45,253 nucleotides of DNA, taken from IMG/VR virus record IMGVR_UViG_3300042904_000265, positions 1 to 45,253 of that record; one strand, 5' to 3'. This stretch comes from a virus. Position 1 is the first letter of the stretch. Every line of letters begins with the position of its first letter. Below the pieces are notes generated by a model. It worked only from the letters and a program-made list of their open reading frames with translations, had not been told where the DNA came from and searched no databases. Below are positions 882 through 45,253 of the stretch, one piece after another. A program made the translations under genes and the position numbers.

Positions 882-1034
882 GCACTAAATCATGCATTAG
901 TTTTTAATGGTTGTCGTCAGGCTACTAAAAAATATATTTGCAGCCAACTGGTAAATACCCCAGTTTTGTATTGACAATAGTTCCATAGTATGGCATCGTT
1001 AGTCTACAATTGTTAAACAGGAGGCGACATACAT
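882..1034. promoter_or_regulatory. Divergent control region between two RHH genes
   Basis: This AT-rich stretch separates the divergent RHH genes. It contains TTGACA at 971-976 on the plus strand without a good -10, and a perfect inverted repeat AACTGG-8 bases-CCAGTT (946-951 / 960-965) just upstream of it. It also contains AATCATGCATT at 888-898, a motif that recurs at 11703-11713. These are candidate operators of one of the flanking RHH proteins. Function is inferred from position only. Confidence 0.5.
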
Positions 1035-1196
1035 ATGCGTAAGACTCACAGAATAACCTTTAGAACCAGCGAGGAGGTGCGCGACAAGCTCGTAGAGCAA
1101 GCCTACGAAAACAACCGCGACAGCATGAGTCAGGAAGCCCGCGCCATCATCGAGAAGGCGCTGGGCATTAAGCGTGCCAAACGGGTAGCCAACTAG
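1035..1196 (+). CDS. Small ribbon-helix-helix protein
   Basis: A 53-residue protein (starts MRKTHRITFRTSEEV, ends KRAKRVAN) preceded by AGGAGG about 10 bases upstream of the ATG. A short strand (HRITFRTS) is followed by two helices (VRDKLVEQAYENN and SMSQEARAIIEKAL), as in Arc/CopG-type regulators. It is the first gene of the rightward operon and diverges from another RHH gene, an arrangement resembling a Cro/CI-type switch. Its use as the switch regulator is an inference. Confidence 0.8.
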   Translation: MRKTHRITFRTSEEVRDKLVEQAYENNRDSMSQEARAIIEKALGIKRAKRVAN

Positions 1197-1204
1197 GAGG
1201 GGCT

Positions 1205-8587: not shown

Positions 8588-9418
8588 ATGAACCGGTGGA
8601 TAACACGAGTAGTGGAAAGCGGATCAACAGGCACATCATACATGGTGCTTGATCCCGATCCTAATGGGAATTGGGTCGAGTATGCCGACGCCCAGCGCAC
8701 CATTGCCGAGCTGACGGCGCAGCTGGAGGCGGCACATACCACGATTGCAGACAAGGTGAAGGCCTGTACGGAGATGGCTGGCAAATTGGTGGCGGTAGAG
8801 ACGCAGCTGGAGGCGGCGCGGGGGGAGCGGGACAAGCTAGAGCATGAACTGGCGGACATGACCCAAAATGCTGCTGGCCATGCCATTGCCTATGACTCGA
8901 TCAAGGCCGAGCTGACCACGCTGCGGCAGGAGCGGGACGAGATCCACACGATCCTAGAGACAATGATGGTGTCGCTAGAGGAAGCGGGGTTTAAGCAACC
9001 AACGCATACCCTCCAGCTCAAAGCCGCATTGGCTGAGCTTCAATCGCTGCGGGCCGCGCTGGAAAGTATCGCAAAGAATACATGTTGCGGACCATGCCAA
9101 GAAGCGGCGCTGGTCGCTCAACATGCGCTCGCCACGCGGCAGGCCACGCCGGAGGAGGGGGCAATCATGAGCTGGATTCAACGACAATATAGCCCGCCTG
9201 AAGGATTTACCGCTGACGAGATCAAGCGGAACCTACACACTGTCTATATTGATTTGGAGTGTAGCGTGTGTGGTTACGTGATCTCTATGGCAAACAATAG
9301 CGGAACGAAACCGTGTCGCTGTGGTGGATATGATCGCGACCAACCGAGCGACCAAGAACTGATGCGGCTGCAGGAAGCGGGCTCGGAGCGGCTGGGGGGA
9401 GGGGAGGAGGACAAGTGA
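8588..9418 (+). CDS. Coiled-coil protein with C-terminal zinc ribbon, 276 aa
   Basis: It starts MNRWITRVVESGS. Residues about 30-170 are long heptad-repeat helices (e.g. RTIAELTAQLEAAHTT, AVETQLEAARGERDKLE). CCGPC follows at about 165. The C-terminal third has ECSVCGY and PCRCGGY, a zinc ribbon. Such proteins are common in phage early regions and may scaffold or bind nucleic acid. Function unknown. Confidence 0.75.
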   Translation: MNRWITRVVESGSTGTSYMVLDPDPNGNWVEYADAQRTIAELTAQLEAAHTTIADKVKACTEMAGKLVAVETQLEAARGERDKLEHELADMTQNAAGHAIAYDSIKAELTTLRQERDEIHTILETMMVSLEEAGFKQPTHTLQLKAALAELQSLRAALESIAKNTCCGPCQEAALVAQHALATRQATPEEGAIMSWIQRQYSPPEGFTADEIKRNLHTVYIDLECSVCGYVISMANNSGTKPCRCGGYDRDQPSDQELMRLQEAGSERLGGGEEDK

Positions 9419-9621
9419 CGCCACGAACGATACATCCTAGGAAAACACTGTTATTAAAACGTGACAATCTCGCACTCAAGAATAGCTTTATTTTGCTGAT
9501 GGACTATGGGCGCATTGTTATCGGCACGAAGAAGACAGGAGAGGACACCACACATAAAATTCTCCTCACTCGACGCGAGTTCAATAAAATGGTGGATTGG
9601 TACAACGGGATTCAGCCATGA
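9415..9621 (+). CDS. Hypothetical protein, 68 aa
   Basis: GTG start overlapping the preceding TGA (GTGA) with GGAGGA upstream. Basic, beta-rich (LLLKRDNLALKNSFILLMDYG). Its TGA overlaps the next ATG. Not recognised. Confidence 0.6.
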   Translation: MTPRTIHPRKTLLLKRDNLALKNSFILLMDYGRIVIGTKKTGEDTTHKILLTRREFNKMVDWYNGIQP

Positions 9622-9737
9622 CGCGCCATGACTGGGACATGGTACTGGAAGCGGCCTTGTGGGGCACGAGCTACGGGATGATTGTGAGCGCGGTCCTGCT
9701 CGTGGGATATGTGCTGTATGGCTGGATGAGGGGGTGA
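9618..9737 (+). CDS. Small single-pass membrane protein, 39 aa
   Basis: MTRHDWDMVLEAALWG... followed by a hydrophobic helix (MIVSAVLLVGYVLYGW) and ending RG. Overlaps the preceding stop by ATGA. Function unknown. Confidence 0.5.
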   Translation: MTRHDWDMVLEAALWGTSYGMIVSAVLLVGYVLYGWMRG

Positions 9738-9741
9738 GGGG

Positions 9742-9909
9742 ATGAGTCCAATAGATAAACTTACAATTCGTATTACAAAAACAGCGGATGGACAATACGA
9801 CTATGTCCAGATCATGAGCGGTGACGTTTTCTCTGTGAATGTTGTACTGATCGCCACTCACATAGACGTGCTGGATCAACGCCCGCCAAAGAAGAAGAGC
9901 AAGCCATGA
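9742..9909 (+). CDS. Hypothetical protein, 55 aa
   Basis: MSPIDKLTIRITKTADGQYDY... with GAGGGG just before the start. Beta-rich with a very basic C-terminus (PPKKKSKP). Overlaps the next ATG. Not recognised. Confidence 0.55.
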   Translation: MSPIDKLTIRITKTADGQYDYVQIMSGDVFSVNVVLIATHIDVLDQRPPKKKSKP

Positions 9910-10253
9910 CTGACCTAGAGCGCGTGCAGGCCGAGAATCAGCGGCTGCGGGAGGAGCGAGAGCAGGCCCTCGATGAATGCGTCCACATTGTAGATGCCTG
10001 CAAGGAAGTGCTGCGACGAGCCAACAAGTTCATGAACACCAGAGAGCAGCACCATCTCGAAGAATTGGAAGCAGCATGTGGCCAGATCAACAAGACACCG
10101 GCTGAACTTTCAACCTATGCCGGTAAAGTCCTGCAAGAACGTGATGTGATGCGGGAGGCATTAGAAAAGCTTGCACGGTTAGGCAATGAGCCTCATTACG
10201 GTAATAGTGACGGCAACATGATTGCGAGACGAGCCTTACAGGTGAACCCATGA
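9906..10253 (+). CDS. Coiled-coil protein, 115 aa
   Basis: MTDLERVQAENQRLREE... An acidic coiled-coil helix (to about residue 60) with CVHIVDACKEV inside, then a second helix. Overlaps both neighbours by ATGA. Function unknown. Confidence 0.65.
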   Translation: MTDLERVQAENQRLREEREQALDECVHIVDACKEVLRRANKFMNTREQHHLEELEAACGQINKTPAELSTYAGKVLQERDVMREALEKLARLGNEPHYGNSDGNMIARRALQVNP

Positions 10254-10501
10254 CCGACGAGACGGGGCGGCGAGCGGCGGCAGAGCGGCTCGTATCAGAT
10301 TTGGTGGTGGTGTATAGGAATAAGGACGATGTTGACATTGCGTTGCGTGCCCTCAATGCCGCCTACCGCGCAGGGCTGGCGCAAGGCAAAGCAGAGGGCA
10401 TTAGCGCAGCCCTCTTGCTTTCTAGTGGACGCGAGATTGGCGAGTGGCGACAAACGATGTACACCGAACTCGACCGGCTGGCCCGCGATGGGGGTGCATG
10501 A
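10250..10501 (+). CDS. Hypothetical helical protein, 83 aa
   Basis: MTDETGRRAAAERLVSD... predicted all-helical, no motif. Overlaps the preceding gene by ATGA and the following by one base. Confidence 0.6.
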   Translation: MTDETGRRAAAERLVSDLVVVYRNKDDVDIALRALNAAYRAGLAQGKAEGISAALLLSSGREIGEWRQTMYTELDRLARDGGA

Positions 10502-10839: not shown

Positions 10840-10848
10840 GAGGATATC

Positions 10849-10998
10849 ATGGATATGAAGCCGTGTCTGGTCATGGGCCAAATTGCCCTCGCGCTATTAA
10901 TAGGCACCTTCGCATCTGCCGGCCTGTACATGGCCGCTGCCATTACCAGCCTAGGCATTTCCGTCCTTGGCGTGGCCGTCCTGATAGCCCCGAAATAG
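10849..10998 (+). CDS. Small two-helix membrane protein, 49 aa
   Basis: AGGAGG lies 5 bases before the ATG. MDMKPCLVMGQIALALLIG... has two hydrophobic helices (about 7-28 and 31-46). Last gene before the long non-coding stretch. Function unknown. Confidence 0.6.
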   Translation: MDMKPCLVMGQIALALLIGTFASAGLYMAAAITSLGISVLGVAVLIAPK

Positions 10999-11302
10999 CC
11001 CCGTTCACCCCACATTCACCCAAACCGTGTCAAGCGAAATCTTCATACCCTGTTCTGTATGTTATCAAGGCCTTACCTGCGTCTGACAAAATAATTTCAC
11101 TTTCCTGTGTTACATACTCTTACCTTACTGACCCTTGAAAAGGGGCAGACTCTGGGCAAGCGTAGCGCTATCCGGTTCTTAGTTCGGTTGCGTAGCAACA
11201 CCTAGAGAGGGAGGTAGCAAACGCTTGTCGTTTGCGGTAGCTTGCGATAGCAAGCGTTATCCGTGTCCTAGCCCAGGGCGAACCATTTAAGGAATAGTCC
11301 GT
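10999..11302. other. Long gene-free region containing a structured element
   Basis: No convincing gene on either strand. The left half (to about 11138) is AT-richer and unstructured. The right half holds the nested inverted repeats listed separately at 11150-11278. It separates the early small-gene operon from the packaging genes, so late-operon promoters are expected here; no clear -35/-10 pair could be picked. Confidence 0.6.
11150..11278 (+). ncRNA. Candidate structured RNA or multi-hairpin control element
   Basis: An outer stem (11150-11157 with 11271-11278, eight pairs including one G-U) encloses three hairpins. GTTGC(GTA)GCAAC is at 11187-11199, GCAAACG(CTTGT)CGTTTGC at 11217-11235, and GCTTGC(GATA)GCAAGC at 11240-11255. 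AACGCTTG (11220-11227) is also fully complementary to CAAGCGTT (11251-11258), giving a rival pairing that would break the last two hairpins. This looks like a multibranch RNA with two states, or a DNA element with palindromic sites. No known family is recognised. Confidence 0.45.
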
Positions 11303-11386
11303 ATGCCGGCAAGAAAGAAAACACGAATCCACCCTATGAACCTCTGCGTACATCTGAACAGGGGCTTTTCCCCGGCCACGTACTAA
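11303..11386 (+). CDS. Possible short leader peptide, 27 aa
   Basis: MPARKKTRIHPMNLC... with AAGGAA about 10 bases upstream. It ends 3 bases before the ATG of the next gene, which lacks its own Shine-Dalgarno, so translation of this peptide could feed the next gene. A GGGG-CTTTT-CCCC hairpin lies within its 3' half. Very short; may be only a leader. Confidence 0.3.
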   Translation: MPARKKTRIHPMNLCVHLNRGFSPATY

Positions 11387-11389
11387 TGC

Positions 11390-11671
11390 ATGACACATTA
11401 CTGGGGAGCCAAGGCGATCTGTGAACGCATTGGATATCGTAACGCAAGCCGACTCCCAGACCTTATCGTTAAGTATCACGTCCCGGCCTATAAACGTCAC
11501 CATCCCCTGAAACGTATGATCACCGTCTATTACAGTAACGAGGCCATGCTCAGTCGCTGGGACCTGACCAGGGCTGAACAAAATAGAGAGGCCCTAATCC
11601 AGAGACAAGAGGCGCGAGACATGGCCAAGGCAGAGAAGGCCAAGTATGGGCCCCGAGGTATTCTCAAGTGA
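11390..11671 (+). CDS. HTH-type DNA-binding protein upstream of packaging genes
   Basis: A 93-residue basic protein starting MTHYWGAKAICERIGY. A MerR/excisionase-like helix-turn-helix is suggested by AKAICERIGYRNASRLPDL, then VPAYKR and a small strand (ITVYYSNEAML). The C-terminus is a charged helix. It could be a late-gene regulator, an excisionase-type protein or a small-terminase-like DNA binder; position does not decide. No ribosome site is visible. Confidence 0.65.
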   Translation: MTHYWGAKAICERIGYRNASRLPDLIVKYHVPAYKRHHPLKRMITVYYSNEAMLSRWDLTRAEQNREALIQRQEARDMAKAEKAKYGPRGILK

Positions 11672-11686
11672 CCTTCTCGCGTGTCT

Positions 11687-11711
11687 TGCATGATTTAGCT
11701 TGAATCATGCA
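11687..11711. promoter_or_regulatory. Perfect 9-base inverted repeat containing the ATCATGCA motif
   Basis: TGCATGATT (11687-11695) and AATCATGCA (11703-11711) are perfect inverted copies around a 7-base spacer. There is no T-run, so it is more like an operator than a terminator. The right arm matches sites at 562-569 and 888-896 in the lysogeny region, suggesting a common DNA-binding protein. Confidence 0.5.
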
Positions 11712-11872
11712 TTGCCTAATCAATCATATCAATGGCTTACGCATAGCATGCTCATGATTCACCAGTCAGATGGCCTGGATCGGCCCCACCGGGGGTGGTT
11801 TGACCCTTGCTTTTGCGTGGCTGCAGTTGTAAGGCCCGAAAAATATCCGGCACATGCCCTCACGGCAATAAG

Positions 11873-11881
11873 TTATCCACA
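11873..11881 (+). other. Perfect DnaA-box consensus TTATCCACA
   Basis: A single exact match to the 9-base DnaA box lies just before the Shine-Dalgarno at 11881-11885. Only one was noticed, so it may be chance. Confidence 0.25.
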
Positions 11882-11890
11882 GGAGTGCCC

Positions 11891-12310
11891 ATGAACGACC
11901 GCGATTCTGCCCATGACGATGTCTTCAAGCGCATGGCCGACTTAACTGACCGTGCCGGTATCGACACGGACCAGGCCGGCAAGATCAATGAAGGGGCCTT
12001 GGACTGGCTCCAGTCCGTGGTGGACCAGGCCAAGGGCATGAAGCTGGACGCGAAAAAGAAGGTGGAGTGTCCAGAGTGCCGGAAGCAGTTTTTGATTGAG
12101 ATATTCAACCTGGAGCAGGCCACGAAAGCGGCGGCGAATATCGCCAAGCTCCTAGACCAGAATGCCCGCCTCACCCAGTTCATCCAGGGCAAGGAAGATT
12201 CCAGGCCAGGGGGCCGGGGTGGCGACAATACGATCCTGCAATGTCTGAAGCCGGACCAGCTCGCCATTTTGCAAACCTGGCTCGTGGAAAATCAGGGGGT
12301 AGGGCAGTGA
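11891..12310 (+). CDS. Putative small-terminase-region protein with zinc finger
   Basis: A 139-residue protein starting MNDRDSAHDDVFKRM, with AGGAG 6 bases before the ATG. CPECRKQF at about 59-66 is a half zinc knuckle. The C-terminus (CLKPDQLAILQTWL) is a helix reminiscent of oligomerisation ends. It precedes terL by five small genes and could be the small terminase, but similarity is weak. The frame is open upstream to 11807 and encodes a Cys-rich stretch (CSCKARKISGTCPHG), so a longer form is possible. Confidence 0.6.
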   Translation: MNDRDSAHDDVFKRMADLTDRAGIDTDQAGKINEGALDWLQSVVDQAKGMKLDAKKKVECPECRKQFLIEIFNLEQATKAAANIAKLLDQNARLTQFIQGKEDSRPGGRGGDNTILQCLKPDQLAILQTWLVENQGVGQ

Positions 12311-13162: not shown

Positions 13163-13335
13163 ACACGCTACGCGCCTGGCAGCAACGGCAGGATGTTCAG
13201 GGCCAGTTTTTGCCGGTCTATCATCTGTTGCAGTGCCGGGAATGCGGGTATTGTCAGAAGGCCTGTTCCGAGAGTCGATTGCGACCGATTACACCCAGAC
13301 CCCTGGAGGGCAAACCTAACTTGACACTTGGCTAA
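13159..13335 (+). CDS. Small zinc-finger-like protein, 58 aa
   Basis: MNTLRAWQQRQDVQGQ... with CRECGYCQKAC (C26, C29, C32, C36). It overlaps the lipoprotein stop by ATGA and the terminase start by 8 bases. Function unknown. Confidence 0.5.
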   Translation: MNTLRAWQQRQDVQGQFLPVYHLLQCRECGYCQKACSESRLRPITPRPLEGKPNLTLG

Positions 13336-14056
13336 AAAGTTCAAAACCGCCATAGACCAGCTCGACTTCGAGCGGTGTCGTCGTGACCCGCAATACTTCA
13401 TTTTTGAGCAAGTGAGGACGAAGGATGAGCACGATGCGGCGGATCCCGTCAAGCGCTTCCCCGATCACCTGTACTTGCGTTCCCTCCTCGATTGTCTCCT
13501 GGTGGCAGGACGACTACTCCCTCCCAGAGATGCCCGATACGCCCTTGAGGCAGGGCATTCGGAAACCTGGCTTACTGCGCTCCACACGTCCGGCATCCTC
13601 ATGACCGAAAAGAGCCGGCAAGTCATGGCGACATGGCTGTGCTGTGCCTACCTCCTCTGGCGGGCCAAATTCCGTGAACACCAGCTAATCCTCGTCCAAT
13701 CAAAAAAAGAAGAAGACGCAGCGAACCTGGTGTTCAACGGGGAGGCCTGGGTCGCCCGAATGAGCTTCATGGAAGTGAATCTGCCCCAACATTTGCGCAG
13801 CATCGCACCGAAAGCAGGGATGAGCTATGCCCAACTCAGAACCGACTCAGGATCCAGAATCTGGGGATGCCCAGAGGGTGGTGACATTATTCGATCCAAC
13901 ACAGCTTCTGTCATTTTTAGCGACGAGGCCTGTTTCCAGCCAGAATTTGGAAACGCCTTTACCGCAGCCCTGCCCAGCATCAAGGGCGGAGGATCCCTTG
14001 TCGCCATCAGCTCTGCAGAGCCAGGGGCTTTTGCTGAGATAGTGGAGGCGGCATGA
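13328..14056 (+). CDS. terL: Terminase large subunit, N-terminal (ATPase) half of a split gene
   Basis: 242 residues from a TTG at 13328 (MAKKFKTAIDQLDFE). This is the DNA-packaging ATPase domain. It has a deviant Walker A region TEKSRQVMATW (93-103) with the KSRQ seen in several terminases but no GKS/T, and Walker B VIFSDEA (195-201; D199, E200). The coupling motif LVAISSAEPG (224-233) follows. The frame stops at 14056, where terminases normally continue into the nuclease domain. An HNH gene starts at the stop (ATGA). The nuclease half resumes at 14525 in the same reading frame. The Shine-Dalgarno for the TTG is weak (GGAGGG 17 bases upstream). Confidence 0.85.
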   Translation: MAKKFKTAIDQLDFERCRRDPQYFIFEQVRTKDEHDAADPVKRFPDHLYLRSLLDCLLVAGRLLPPRDARYALEAGHSETWLTALHTSGILMTEKSRQVMATWLCCAYLLWRAKFREHQLILVQSKKEEDAANLVFNGEAWVARMSFMEVNLPQHLRSIAPKAGMSYAQLRTDSGSRIWGCPEGGDIIRSNTASVIFSDEACFQPEFGNAFTAALPSIKGGGSLVAISSAEPGAFAEIVEAA

Positions 14057-14538
14057 ATTTGCAGATCGATGAAGCGAGAAAGCGAGTTTCTGACCGAGTC
14101 ATCGTCCTTGATAACGGATGCTGGCAGTGGGTCGGGTGCGGCAAGGACAACGGTTATGGTGTGCACTATGGGGTGATTGGCTTCCGCGATGGTGGCAAGA
14201 GGCGGCAGTACTACGCCCATAGGTTTAGTTACATCGCGCACAAGGGGAATATTCCCGATGGATACGAAATTGATCATTTGTGCCGTAGGCCCATGTGCGT
14301 GAATCCAGAGCACCTAGAAGCAGTAACGCGCAGAGAAAATCTAATGCGTGGGAACACGGTCTGCGCCATCAACGCGGCGAAAACTCAGTGTCCTGCCGGA
14401 CATGAATACTCACCGGATAATACGCGCACGAAGGATAACGTCAGGAAGTGCAGGGCCTGCGACCGCGTGCGAAGGCGGCGATACGTGGCGGCCAATTACG
14501 AGGCCGTCAAGGAGAAGAAGAGACTTGCAAGGCGTTAA
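14053..14538 (+). CDS. HNH homing endonuclease inserted in the terminase gene
   Basis: 161 residues. It has an HNH core with EIDHLC (72-77), N84 and H87 in CVNPEHLEAVTRREN, preceded by the typical GCWQW...GYG and YYAHRFSYIAHKG blocks. A C-terminal Cys/His module (CPAGHEYS...CRAC) and a basic tail follow. It begins at the stop of the ATPase half (ATGA) and its 3' end overlaps the start of the nuclease half, carrying that half's ribosome site. It is a free-standing homing nuclease: no intron-like flanks and no intein motifs. It is paralogous to the HNH gene at 23657. Confidence 0.9.
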   Translation: MNLQIDEARKRVSDRVIVLDNGCWQWVGCGKDNGYGVHYGVIGFRDGGKRRQYYAHRFSYIAHKGNIPDGYEIDHLCRRPMCVNPEHLEAVTRRENLMRGNTVCAINAAKTQCPAGHEYSPDNTRTKDNVRKCRACDRVRRRRYVAANYEAVKEKKRLARR

Positions 14539-15514
14539 CGAGCGCATAACGAAATCTGGCATTCCAGTGCTCAGGCTGCATTACTCAGCTTGCCCAGATA
14601 AACGCCCAGGAACCCCAGAGGGCGACCAGTGGCTAGAGCAGGCCACACAGGGCTATCCCGGTGGCGTGAAGTCCCCGCGCTGGATGAAGGAAATGGAAAT
14701 AGACTTTGGCGCACTGGGCGGAACCAAGCTCATCCCAGGCTGGCCAGAGCTAAAGGAAAATGGCCGTATCGTCATTCCCCCGATCAACCCCATAGGATTC
14801 AAATTGTATGGAAGCTATGACCATGGCTGGCGTCATCGTGCTGCTTATCATGTGCACGGCATTAATAGTGATGGTAGGAAATTTACGCTCTGGGAATTCT
14901 GGGCGGCCCATGTCCCCTATCAATACATCGCAGAAATTATCAAGGGAAACACAACCCGCGTACCAGCACAAGGTTGTGCGTGTCACCCGGAAGTACGCAC
15001 CTTCCCTGGCAACCCCTATGCAGGCCAAGAAACCTACAAAATAGCCGACCGTGCCTTGTGGGCGGATGACCAGGCAGCCGGCGATGGCACGATGAAAAGC
15101 ATGGCCAAGCTCTTTGCGCGAGAGGGCGTGCATTTTATTGCGGCAGAAGCAGGCGGTGACACGACCTTTGCCGAATGGCTCATGGGCTATTACTGGCGGG
15201 ATCCGCTGAACCCCCTGTATTGCATCACCACGTCATGCCCTGGGCTGATTTGGGAAATTGGCCAGCAACGGCACAAGGATGTTTCCGACAAGGTCGCCCT
15301 GAACAAGCACAAGCCAGAGGAGTTGGTGGATAAGGACAATGACGCCTGGGACTCGTGCAAGTACTGGCATCTCCGCTTTCCGCCACGCCCTATGGCCGCA
15401 GAGATTGCGCAGAAACCGAACAGCTTCCACTGGTGGCGGGAACAATCCAAACGGGCCGCGAATGGCGAGGCCACGCAAACATTTAGCATGCAGCGGGAGA
15501 TGATGGGTGGCTAA
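14525..15514 (+). CDS. terL: Terminase large subunit, C-terminal (nuclease) half of a split gene
   Basis: 329 residues from a TTG at 14525 with AAGGAG 10 bases upstream, embedded in the HNH gene end. It begins QGVNERITKSGIPVLRLHYSA, the usual continuation after the ATPase motif III. RNase-H-like nuclease residues are visible: D99 in YGSYDHG, E208 in FIAAEAGGD, and D273/D276 in NDAWDSCKYWH. It provides the headful or site-specific cut during packaging. The ATPase half ends at 14056, so the two polypeptides must associate. Its end overlaps the portal start by 8 bases. Confidence 0.85.
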   Translation: MQGVNERITKSGIPVLRLHYSACPDKRPGTPEGDQWLEQATQGYPGGVKSPRWMKEMEIDFGALGGTKLIPGWPELKENGRIVIPPINPIGFKLYGSYDHGWRHRAAYHVHGINSDGRKFTLWEFWAAHVPYQYIAEIIKGNTTRVPAQGCACHPEVRTFPGNPYAGQETYKIADRALWADDQAAGDGTMKSMAKLFAREGVHFIAAEAGGDTTFAEWLMGYYWRDPLNPLYCITTSCPGLIWEIGQQRHKDVSDKVALNKHKPEELVDKDNDAWDSCKYWHLRFPPRPMAAEIAQKPNSFHWWREQSKRAANGEATQTFSMQREMMGG

Positions 15515-44388: not shown

Positions 44389-44590
44389 GCTGGCTATTGT
44401 CGTAGACGGTCCCGCTCTGGCCATTACTGCCAAACCATTGCCCTGGTGCACCAGGCGCAGCCGGAGGATAGTACAGGTACGAGCTGCCGTCACTATTAAA
44501 GCCCTGAACTTGCGCTGTCACTGGGCTCGCTATCTGCCCCACTGCATACCCCGACAGGAACAGGCTCAGGCATAGGATTGTTTTCAACAT
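44321..44590 (-). CDS. Small secreted protein, convergent to the late operon
   Basis: 89 residues from the ATG at 44590, which has a strong AAGGAGGAG 4-12 bases upstream. Signal peptide MLKTILCLSLFLSGYAVG with likely cleavage near residues 26-28 (TAQ). The mature part is Gly/Gln/Ser-rich (PPAAPGAPGQWFG, GQGFGQGLSQGLQG). It is transcribed with the integrase and could be expressed in lysogens, perhaps for envelope modification. It overlaps the integrase 3' end by 95 bases and the convergent gene by 68. Confidence 0.6.
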   Translation of the reverse strand: MLKTILCLSLFLSGYAVGQIASPVTAQVQGFNSDGSSYLYYPPAAPGAPGQWFGSNGQSGTVYDNSQPNLGQGFGQGLSQGLQGRRSPC

Positions 44591-45253
44591 GGGCTCCTCC
44601 TTGTGGTTGTAGGTGGGCACGGTTCACCAGCACATTCATATTCAGGGCGGCAATAATCTTTTTATTAATAGGCTGCACGTAAATCTGTGTCGTGTTCAGG
44701 TCCCGATGATTGAGCACGCCTTTGCTGATACTGACTAAGTCTAGGTGTTCCGTCAAGTCCGTCGCACAGGTCCGGCGCAAGTCCCGTTGCTGAACATCTA
44801 ACAGGCCGGCCCGCTTTCGTACCTCTGTCCACTGCAGATGCCACCATTCCTTGCTAGGCTTCCGGCCAAAGCGATTTGCAAATAAGTAGATTTGCCCAGG
44901 GGGCAGCGTAGCTAAGTACTCGGCCAGCAAATCACAGACAAATTGAGGAATAGGGACTTGCTGAGAATCCCCGTTCTTGGTCGTGGGCTTGATCCAGATC
45001 CCGACACGGCCATGTCCTGTTTCAAAAAGCTTAATGTCGGCAACCCTCGCGTTCCGTATCTCTCCTGGTCGTGGCCCTACGTAGTATCCAATATACATGT
45101 ACAGGCGGCTCATTAATGGCTCTCTGTCGATTTCACGCAGCAGGGCTGGGCGTTCCTGTTCAATCACGTAACGGGTACGGCGGTGCGCCCGTTTGCGCTT
45201 GACGCGCTGCGCGGTATTGGGACCACGATACAGCTCCCACTCGATTGCGAGAT
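44496..45253 (-). CDS. int: Tyrosine recombinase (integrase), C-terminal part
   Basis: Catalytic domain of the integrase whose N-terminus is at 1-402. In the joined 330-residue numbering the active-site residues are R140 (YYVGPRPGEIRN), K171 (PTTKNGDSQQ), R238 in QQRDLRRT, H261 (LNHRDL) and nucleophile Y270 (TTQIYVQP). The usual His of HxxR is Arg235. A 60-residue tail follows Tyr270, longer than usual and Pro/Ser/Gly-rich. The right terminal repeat lies inside this piece. Confidence 0.92.
   Translation of the reverse strand, partial: LAIEWELYRGPNTAQRVKRKRAHRRTRYVIEQERPALLREIDREPLMSRLYMYIGYYVGPRPGEIRNARVADIKLFETGHGRVGIWIKPTTKNGDSQQVPIPQFVCDLLAEYLATLPPGQIYLFANRFGRKPSKEWWHLQWTEVRKRAGLLDVQQRDLRRTCATDLTEHLDLVSISKGVLNHRDLNTTQIYVQPINKKIIAALNMNVLVNRAHLQPQGGAHVENNPMPEPVPVGVCSGADSEPSDSASSGL
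45087..45253. repeat. Terminal direct repeat, right copy
   Basis: Matches bases 1-167 with four substitutions (45213, 45216, 45222, 45228), all silent in the integrase frame. Joining the copies restores one uninterrupted integrase gene. Confidence 0.95.

Follow-up and report, generated by a model that had tools for sequence, protein, structure and literature searches.

The window analysed here is an entire virus record of the IMG/VR type, 45,253 bases long. Its ends carry 167-nt repeats (1-167 and 45087-45253) that are 98% identical, with four differences, so that the record appears to be a nearly full circle; the differences all fall inside 16 nt and might stem from two strains in the assembly or from imperfect closure. 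The combination of an integrase and an Arc-like repressor (Table 1) with terminase, portal and major head proteins identifies a temperate tailed phage, which also encodes a DNA methyltransferase. The repressor gene is divergent from the early genes across the second long gap of the window (882-1204, 323 nt), and the region 594-1205 is the probable lysogeny switch.

The relatives of this phage are few. The capsid protein matches distant phages at 22-29% identity and gives a single weak match in 147 Rhodanobacteraceae genomes, the C part of the large terminase has no match among phage records, and a terminase query of the GTDB genomes recovered no relative. The large terminase is encoded in two separate reading frames in the window and in the related contigs L004 and L012, with a small gene between the parts that differs each time: the window has an HNH endonuclease there, L012 an unknown gene and L004 a short reading frame that by eye is sigma region 4-like. 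As judged from these sequences, the terminase looks like a stably two-part protein with an exchangeable cargo slot.

The element that is the subject of this analysis lies in a gap after the last early gene, which ends at 10999, with the late genes beyond; an earlier note on this DNA placed it between early and packaging genes. The gap is free of genes from 11000 to 11302, or as far as 11389 should the 27-aa ORF that begins at 11303 not be a gene.

Table 1. Features of the element and of the phage genome (window positions unless another contig is named)
Feature	Position	Strand	Remarks
Whole element, closing stem plus hairpins	11150-11278	+	
Closing stem, left arm CTCTGGGC	11150-11157	+	pair probabilities 0.86-1.0
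Closing stem, right arm GCCCAGGG	11271-11278	+	belongs to the right end, which is similar to the repeat of Rhodanobacteraceae
Hairpin 1, GTTGC-GTA-GCAAC	11187-11199	+	5 bp, loop GTA
Hairpin 2	11217-11235	+	7 bp, loop CTTGT
Hairpin 3	11240-11255	+	6 bp, loop GATA
GTAG-tagged palindrome unit 1, GTA + GCAAACG-CTTGT-CGTTTGC	11214-11235	+	
GTAG-tagged palindrome unit 2, GTA + GCTTGC-GATA-GCAAGC + G	11237-11256	+	identical to a Rhodanobacteraceae repeat unit
Competing pairing, side one AACGCTTG	11220-11227	+	
Competing pairing, side two CAAGCGTT	11251-11258	+	
Right end CCTA-GCCCAGGGCGAAC	11267-11283	+	resembles CCTACGCTCAGGGCGAAC of the 103-nt Rhodanobacteraceae repeat
Downstream gene, 93 aa	11390-11671	+	related genes in L002/L005 and L003
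Integrase	44496-45164	minus	
Arc-like repressor	594-881	minus	
Split large terminase	13328-15514; L004 1960-3913; L012 9730-10040		

Composition of the element and its chance expectation

The element is a real sequence feature, and every letter-level feature claimed for it in the earlier note is present: the 8-pair closing stem (one pair being U-G), the three perfect hairpins and the exact 8-base complementarity that competes with two of them. The direct repeat was described somewhat loosely. GCAAGCGT occurs at 11156 and at 11250 and TATCCG comes after both copies, but the wording 'followed by' is inexact for the first, where 5 nt (AGCGC) separate the two words.

These features differ widely in how often they are expected by chance. 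The hairpin cluster is the densest and top-ranked in the 45-kb window; only 9 of 5000 dinucleotide shuffles score as high, and 31 of 5000 contain three or more hairpins. The 8-bp complement appeared in 385 of 5000 shuffles and is weak evidence. By a generous criterion, a 7-mer present twice, with a 6-mer shared near both copies, was found in 105 of 2257 overlapping windows and in 841 of 20000 shuffles, and because of the latter frequency the reading of GCAAGCG...TATCCG as a repeated module was dropped. The overall folding energy of the element is not remarkable (z-score of -1.57), with 17 of 200 shuffles reaching an equally good minimum free energy.

The best RNA fold is neither of the two states reported previously. 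At -50.0 kcal/mol, it goes through a third pairing, between AAGCGT (11158-11163) and ACGCTT (11221-11226), that was missing from the earlier note, compared with -48.9 kcal/mol for the reported alternative pairing and -47.5 kcal/mol when all three hairpins are forced. Mutually exclusive folds of similar energy are, then, present, although this is a weak criterion for a bistable regulatory RNA. The interpretation given in the earlier note is partly supported. Of its readings, a bistable RNA is no more than allowed by the energies, with three folds inside 2.5 kcal/mol, and the modest z-score speaks against it.

Comparison with other phages yielded no counterpart of the element. A blastn search against phage and plasmid records gave nothing above chance, no exact 19-mer of the element occurs in the viral contigs, and a 16-mer is found in three of these, two with identical surroundings, with no likeness beyond the motif itself. 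For the C part of the large terminase, identity in protein is 91% for L004, L005 and L006 and 62% for L007; among these four contigs, only L005 includes DNA upstream of the 93-aa gene, and these 151 nt bear no resemblance to the element. A more distant copy of this gene in L003/L012 is preceded by unrelated DNA. Relatives of the neighbouring genes reach few contigs, of which only L008, L009 and L012/L013/L003 continue far enough in the upstream direction to pass the place of the element, and none of these resembles it there; L008 carries an integrase at this place. Mosaic blocks with 95-97% identity between otherwise different phages are also observed, window 8905-10491 corresponding to L008 8270-9565, and the blocks shared with L008 stop at 10491, a short distance ahead of the element region. 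The possibility of an attP or integration site was also weighed and rejected: the phage encodes its integrase at 44496-45164, and neither a tRNA nor a motif like a T-loop could be seen.

GTAG palindromes and a repeat of Rhodanobacteraceae

Two of the hairpins share a feature that lies outside the stems. Both are perfect hairpins of at least 6 bp headed by GTAG at the 5' foot, and they are adjacent, with one common orientation, in tandem and 23 nt apart, whereas the rest of the window contains only one GTAG-headed hairpin of at least 5 bp, with a 5-bp stem. On the plus strand, GTAG occurs 71 times in the window and four times in the 129-nt element, the maximum for that length. According to Di Nocera 2013 (PMC3733652), the larger superfamily of REP (repetitive extragenic palindromic) elements is defined by short palindromes with GTAG at their foot, and REPs are described between co-directional genes. 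In the element, GTAG is located at the 5' foot of palindromes of the 20-40 bp class given in that paper (11214-11235 and 11237-11255), and the position is extragenic, the flanking genes ending at 10999 and starting at 11303 or 11390. Short perfect palindromes, small loops, placement between co-directional genes and the occurrence of more than one unit together are further points of likeness to the superfamily as PMC3733652 portrays it. The element differs from it in being carried by a phage, at one locus of its genome, and in the head-to-tail arrangement of its units. The palindromic DNA element suggested by the earlier note is thus upheld and sharpened, to GTAG-tagged, REP-like palindromes.

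The REPtrons offer a second comparison. According to PMC8266576, the recognised substrate of TnpAREP-REP systems is GTAG plus a folded single-stranded palindrome, and recognition of single-stranded hairpins by the TnpAREP/RAYT enzyme is described there and in PMC3116915. A GTAG tag next to a palindrome that is predicted to fold is found here too. Among those window proteins that were scanned, none was noticed to be a transposase.

Unit 2, GTAGCTTGCGATAGCAAGCG, is identical, letter for letter, to a genomic repeat unit of Rhodanobacteraceae, in which it sits inside a 103-nt repeat with the same general plan as the element, that is, a closing stem plus three hairpins. The 18-mer core of unit 2 matched 13 contigs among the GTDB genomes: nine belong to Rhodanobacter or Fulvimonas (both Rhodanobacteraceae), six of these coming from one MAG, the tenth comes from another proteobacterium and has the left flank seen in Rhodanobacteraceae, and the remaining three contexts are unrelated. 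About 7.5 matches are expected by chance from the size of the collection, so that a chance match on a hairpin-rich repeat family is possible. With 0-3 mismatches, the 22-mer has 8, 16, 2, 1 and 22 copies in five genomes picked because they matched, compared with 0 for a reversed-pattern control, and at up to two mismatches unit 2 is present in 11 of the 147 genomes of the family. Unit 2 is, accordingly, multicopy in some Rhodanobacteraceae and confined to one locus in the phage record. Of 33 copies of the unit, two (L015 and L025) lie outside the repeat. The unit varies in its loop and at paired positions of its stem, as is the case in REP families.

The 103-nt repeat (loci L014-L075, for example L019 7184-7286) itself folds as a near-perfect three-hairpin cloverleaf with variable loops; two-sided compensated changes are seen in 5 of 37 pairs, and no Rfam match was obtained for the two loci scanned.

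Apart from the identical 20-nt hairpin unit, the right end of the element, CAGGGCGAAC, has a resemblance to this repeat. Once the shared hairpin is masked, the flanks in the window align best through CCTA-GCCCAGGGCGAAC with CCTACGCTCAGGGCGAAC, where 17 letters are aligned to the right end of the repeat, CTACGCTCAGGGCGAACGG, with one mismatch and one gap. Same-strand alignments of this quality arose in 13 of 10000 shuffles, those on either strand in 55 of 10000, and 8 of 744 overlapping windows from the rest of the phage also reached it; in 299 genomes of the order, the right-end pattern occurs at 18 places, compared with 17 for the control. A covariance model was built from 22 copies of up to 110 nt out of the 30 composite copies extracted, the eight longer ones being left out. 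In an unfiltered search of the whole window, it ranked 11228-11285 first (13.8 bits), with an E-value of 0.71 that is not significant, the next-ranked place, with an E-value of 1.1, being unrelated; with default filters, no match was found in the window. In contrast to these partial likenesses, the order of the hairpins and the other two hairpins differ from those of the repeat, and the left end is not recognisable. Unit 1 is found in none of 398 Proteobacteria genomes at up to three mismatches, the matches of a blastn search with 171 nt do not exceed 27 nt in 398 genomes of the order or 398 of the phylum, and the GC content is 63-72% in the Rhodanobacteraceae stretches versus 56% in the phage. 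The element is best described as REP-like and probably host-derived, and not as a member of the Rhodanobacteraceae repeat.

Origin of the element and its meaning

Several explanations of these observations were compared. A structured RNA leader encoded by the phage and heading the late transcript, an attenuator, antiterminator or riboregulator that would switch between the hairpin state and the alternative pairings, would fit two observations: the densest hairpin cluster in the window lies ahead of the late genes, and the three folds, which have the closing stem and hairpin 1 in common, are close in energy. The put RNA of HK022 is an example of the late-leader antiterminator or attenuator RNAs of phages, and such RNAs resemble the element in having tandem stem-loops ahead of phage genes, but for the element there is no sequence, promoter or conservation evidence of this kind. 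The only promoter-like site in 10840-11900 is on the minus strand, at 11704-11732 (one found versus 1.2 expected), no intrinsic terminator was called at the element, and the Rfam covariance models gave no match to it at gathering scores or at E-values up to 10. Together with the ordinary folding energy, the lack of a homologue in the phage and plasmid records and viral contigs searched, and the dissimilar 151 nt upstream of the 93-aa gene in L005, in which the next gap (11671-11890) is nevertheless conserved, these results make a leader unlikely. A tRNA-like or other known RNA was likewise rejected, with no tRNA or Rfam match.

The same neighbourhood bears on the explanation that the palindromes are a DNA-level site for a phage protein, namely an operator or a replication or packaging (cos/pac) site, adjoining a gene that could encode a small terminase or a regulator. 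The inverted repeats are located 112 nt upstream of the 93-aa gene, the predicted product of which is probably a winged helix-turn-helix protein, and a gene of this type precedes the large terminase by ∼2 kb in the window, L005 and L003. Among the Foldseek matches of the 93-aa structure model, the DNA-binding domain of Mu transposase comes first and a DNA-binding protein of phage P2 ranks 10th, but all E-values exceed 0.5 and the model is poor (mean pLDDT of 59), so that the packaging idea is kept as a rival only. The three palindromes are unlike one another in sequence, length and spacing and, therefore, are not copies of one operator; an array of operators was rejected for this reason. Neither L005 nor L003 has similar DNA upstream of the gene, and a DNA site at the element is not a likely explanation. 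The better candidate for a conserved control or origin site of the phage is the non-coding gap 11671-11890, which is conserved in two sister contigs (L004 1-203 and L005 about 430-650), with a mean column identity of 81% in an alignment that is part coding. This gap contains an exact TTATCCACA at 11873-11881, which we take to be a DnaA-box word, together with a stem resembling a terminator (11790-11809) and, near 11690, an inverted repeat. If the element were no more than unconstrained spacer DNA in which short inverted repeats are plentiful by chance, this would account for the ordinary statistics of energy, direct repeat and 8-base complement and for the lack of conservation in the relatives compared; the rarity of the hairpin cluster among the shuffles and its top rank in the window would, however, have to be coincidental, as would the GTAG tags and the resemblance at the right end, and this explanation appears quite improbable.

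The preferred explanation, which is put forward tentatively, is a REP/BIME-like cluster of GTAG-tagged palindromes that came from a host and sits between the early and late genes. A REP origin is indicated by the tandem GTAG-headed hairpins, the identity of one unit to a multicopy repeat and the likeness of the right end. The palindromes would, most likely, have been captured from a bacterial chromosome into the non-coding seam after the gene ending at 10999. The units are predicted to fold while single-stranded, and a tyrosine transposase of the host (RAYT/TnpAREP) could have spread them by cutting next to them. In RNA made by read-through, the hairpins would form a structured, partly multistable but passive spacer that might slow decay or dampen early-to-late read-through, with no need for a specific switching function. 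On the whole, the cluster resembles the small repeated palindromes of bacterial chromosomes, probably acquired from a host, more than it does a proven RNA switch.

Should the element instead work as an RNA switch where early and late genes meet, it would be a new control element of phages, but the evidence does not favour this. A broader proposal, that temperate phages carry host-type REPs as cargo at the early/late boundary, in a role that combines phage-borne REP transfer with a multistable RNA spacer coupling early transcription to late expression, is a distinctly long shot. In the literature searched, no title reports REPs as phage cargo, an absence that is not thereby proven. To our knowledge, the arrival of REP families in new bacterial lineages is not a settled matter. 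If phages do carry such cargo, they could transfer REPs from one bacterium to another, and a phage with GTAG palindromes would represent a testable route for their arrival.
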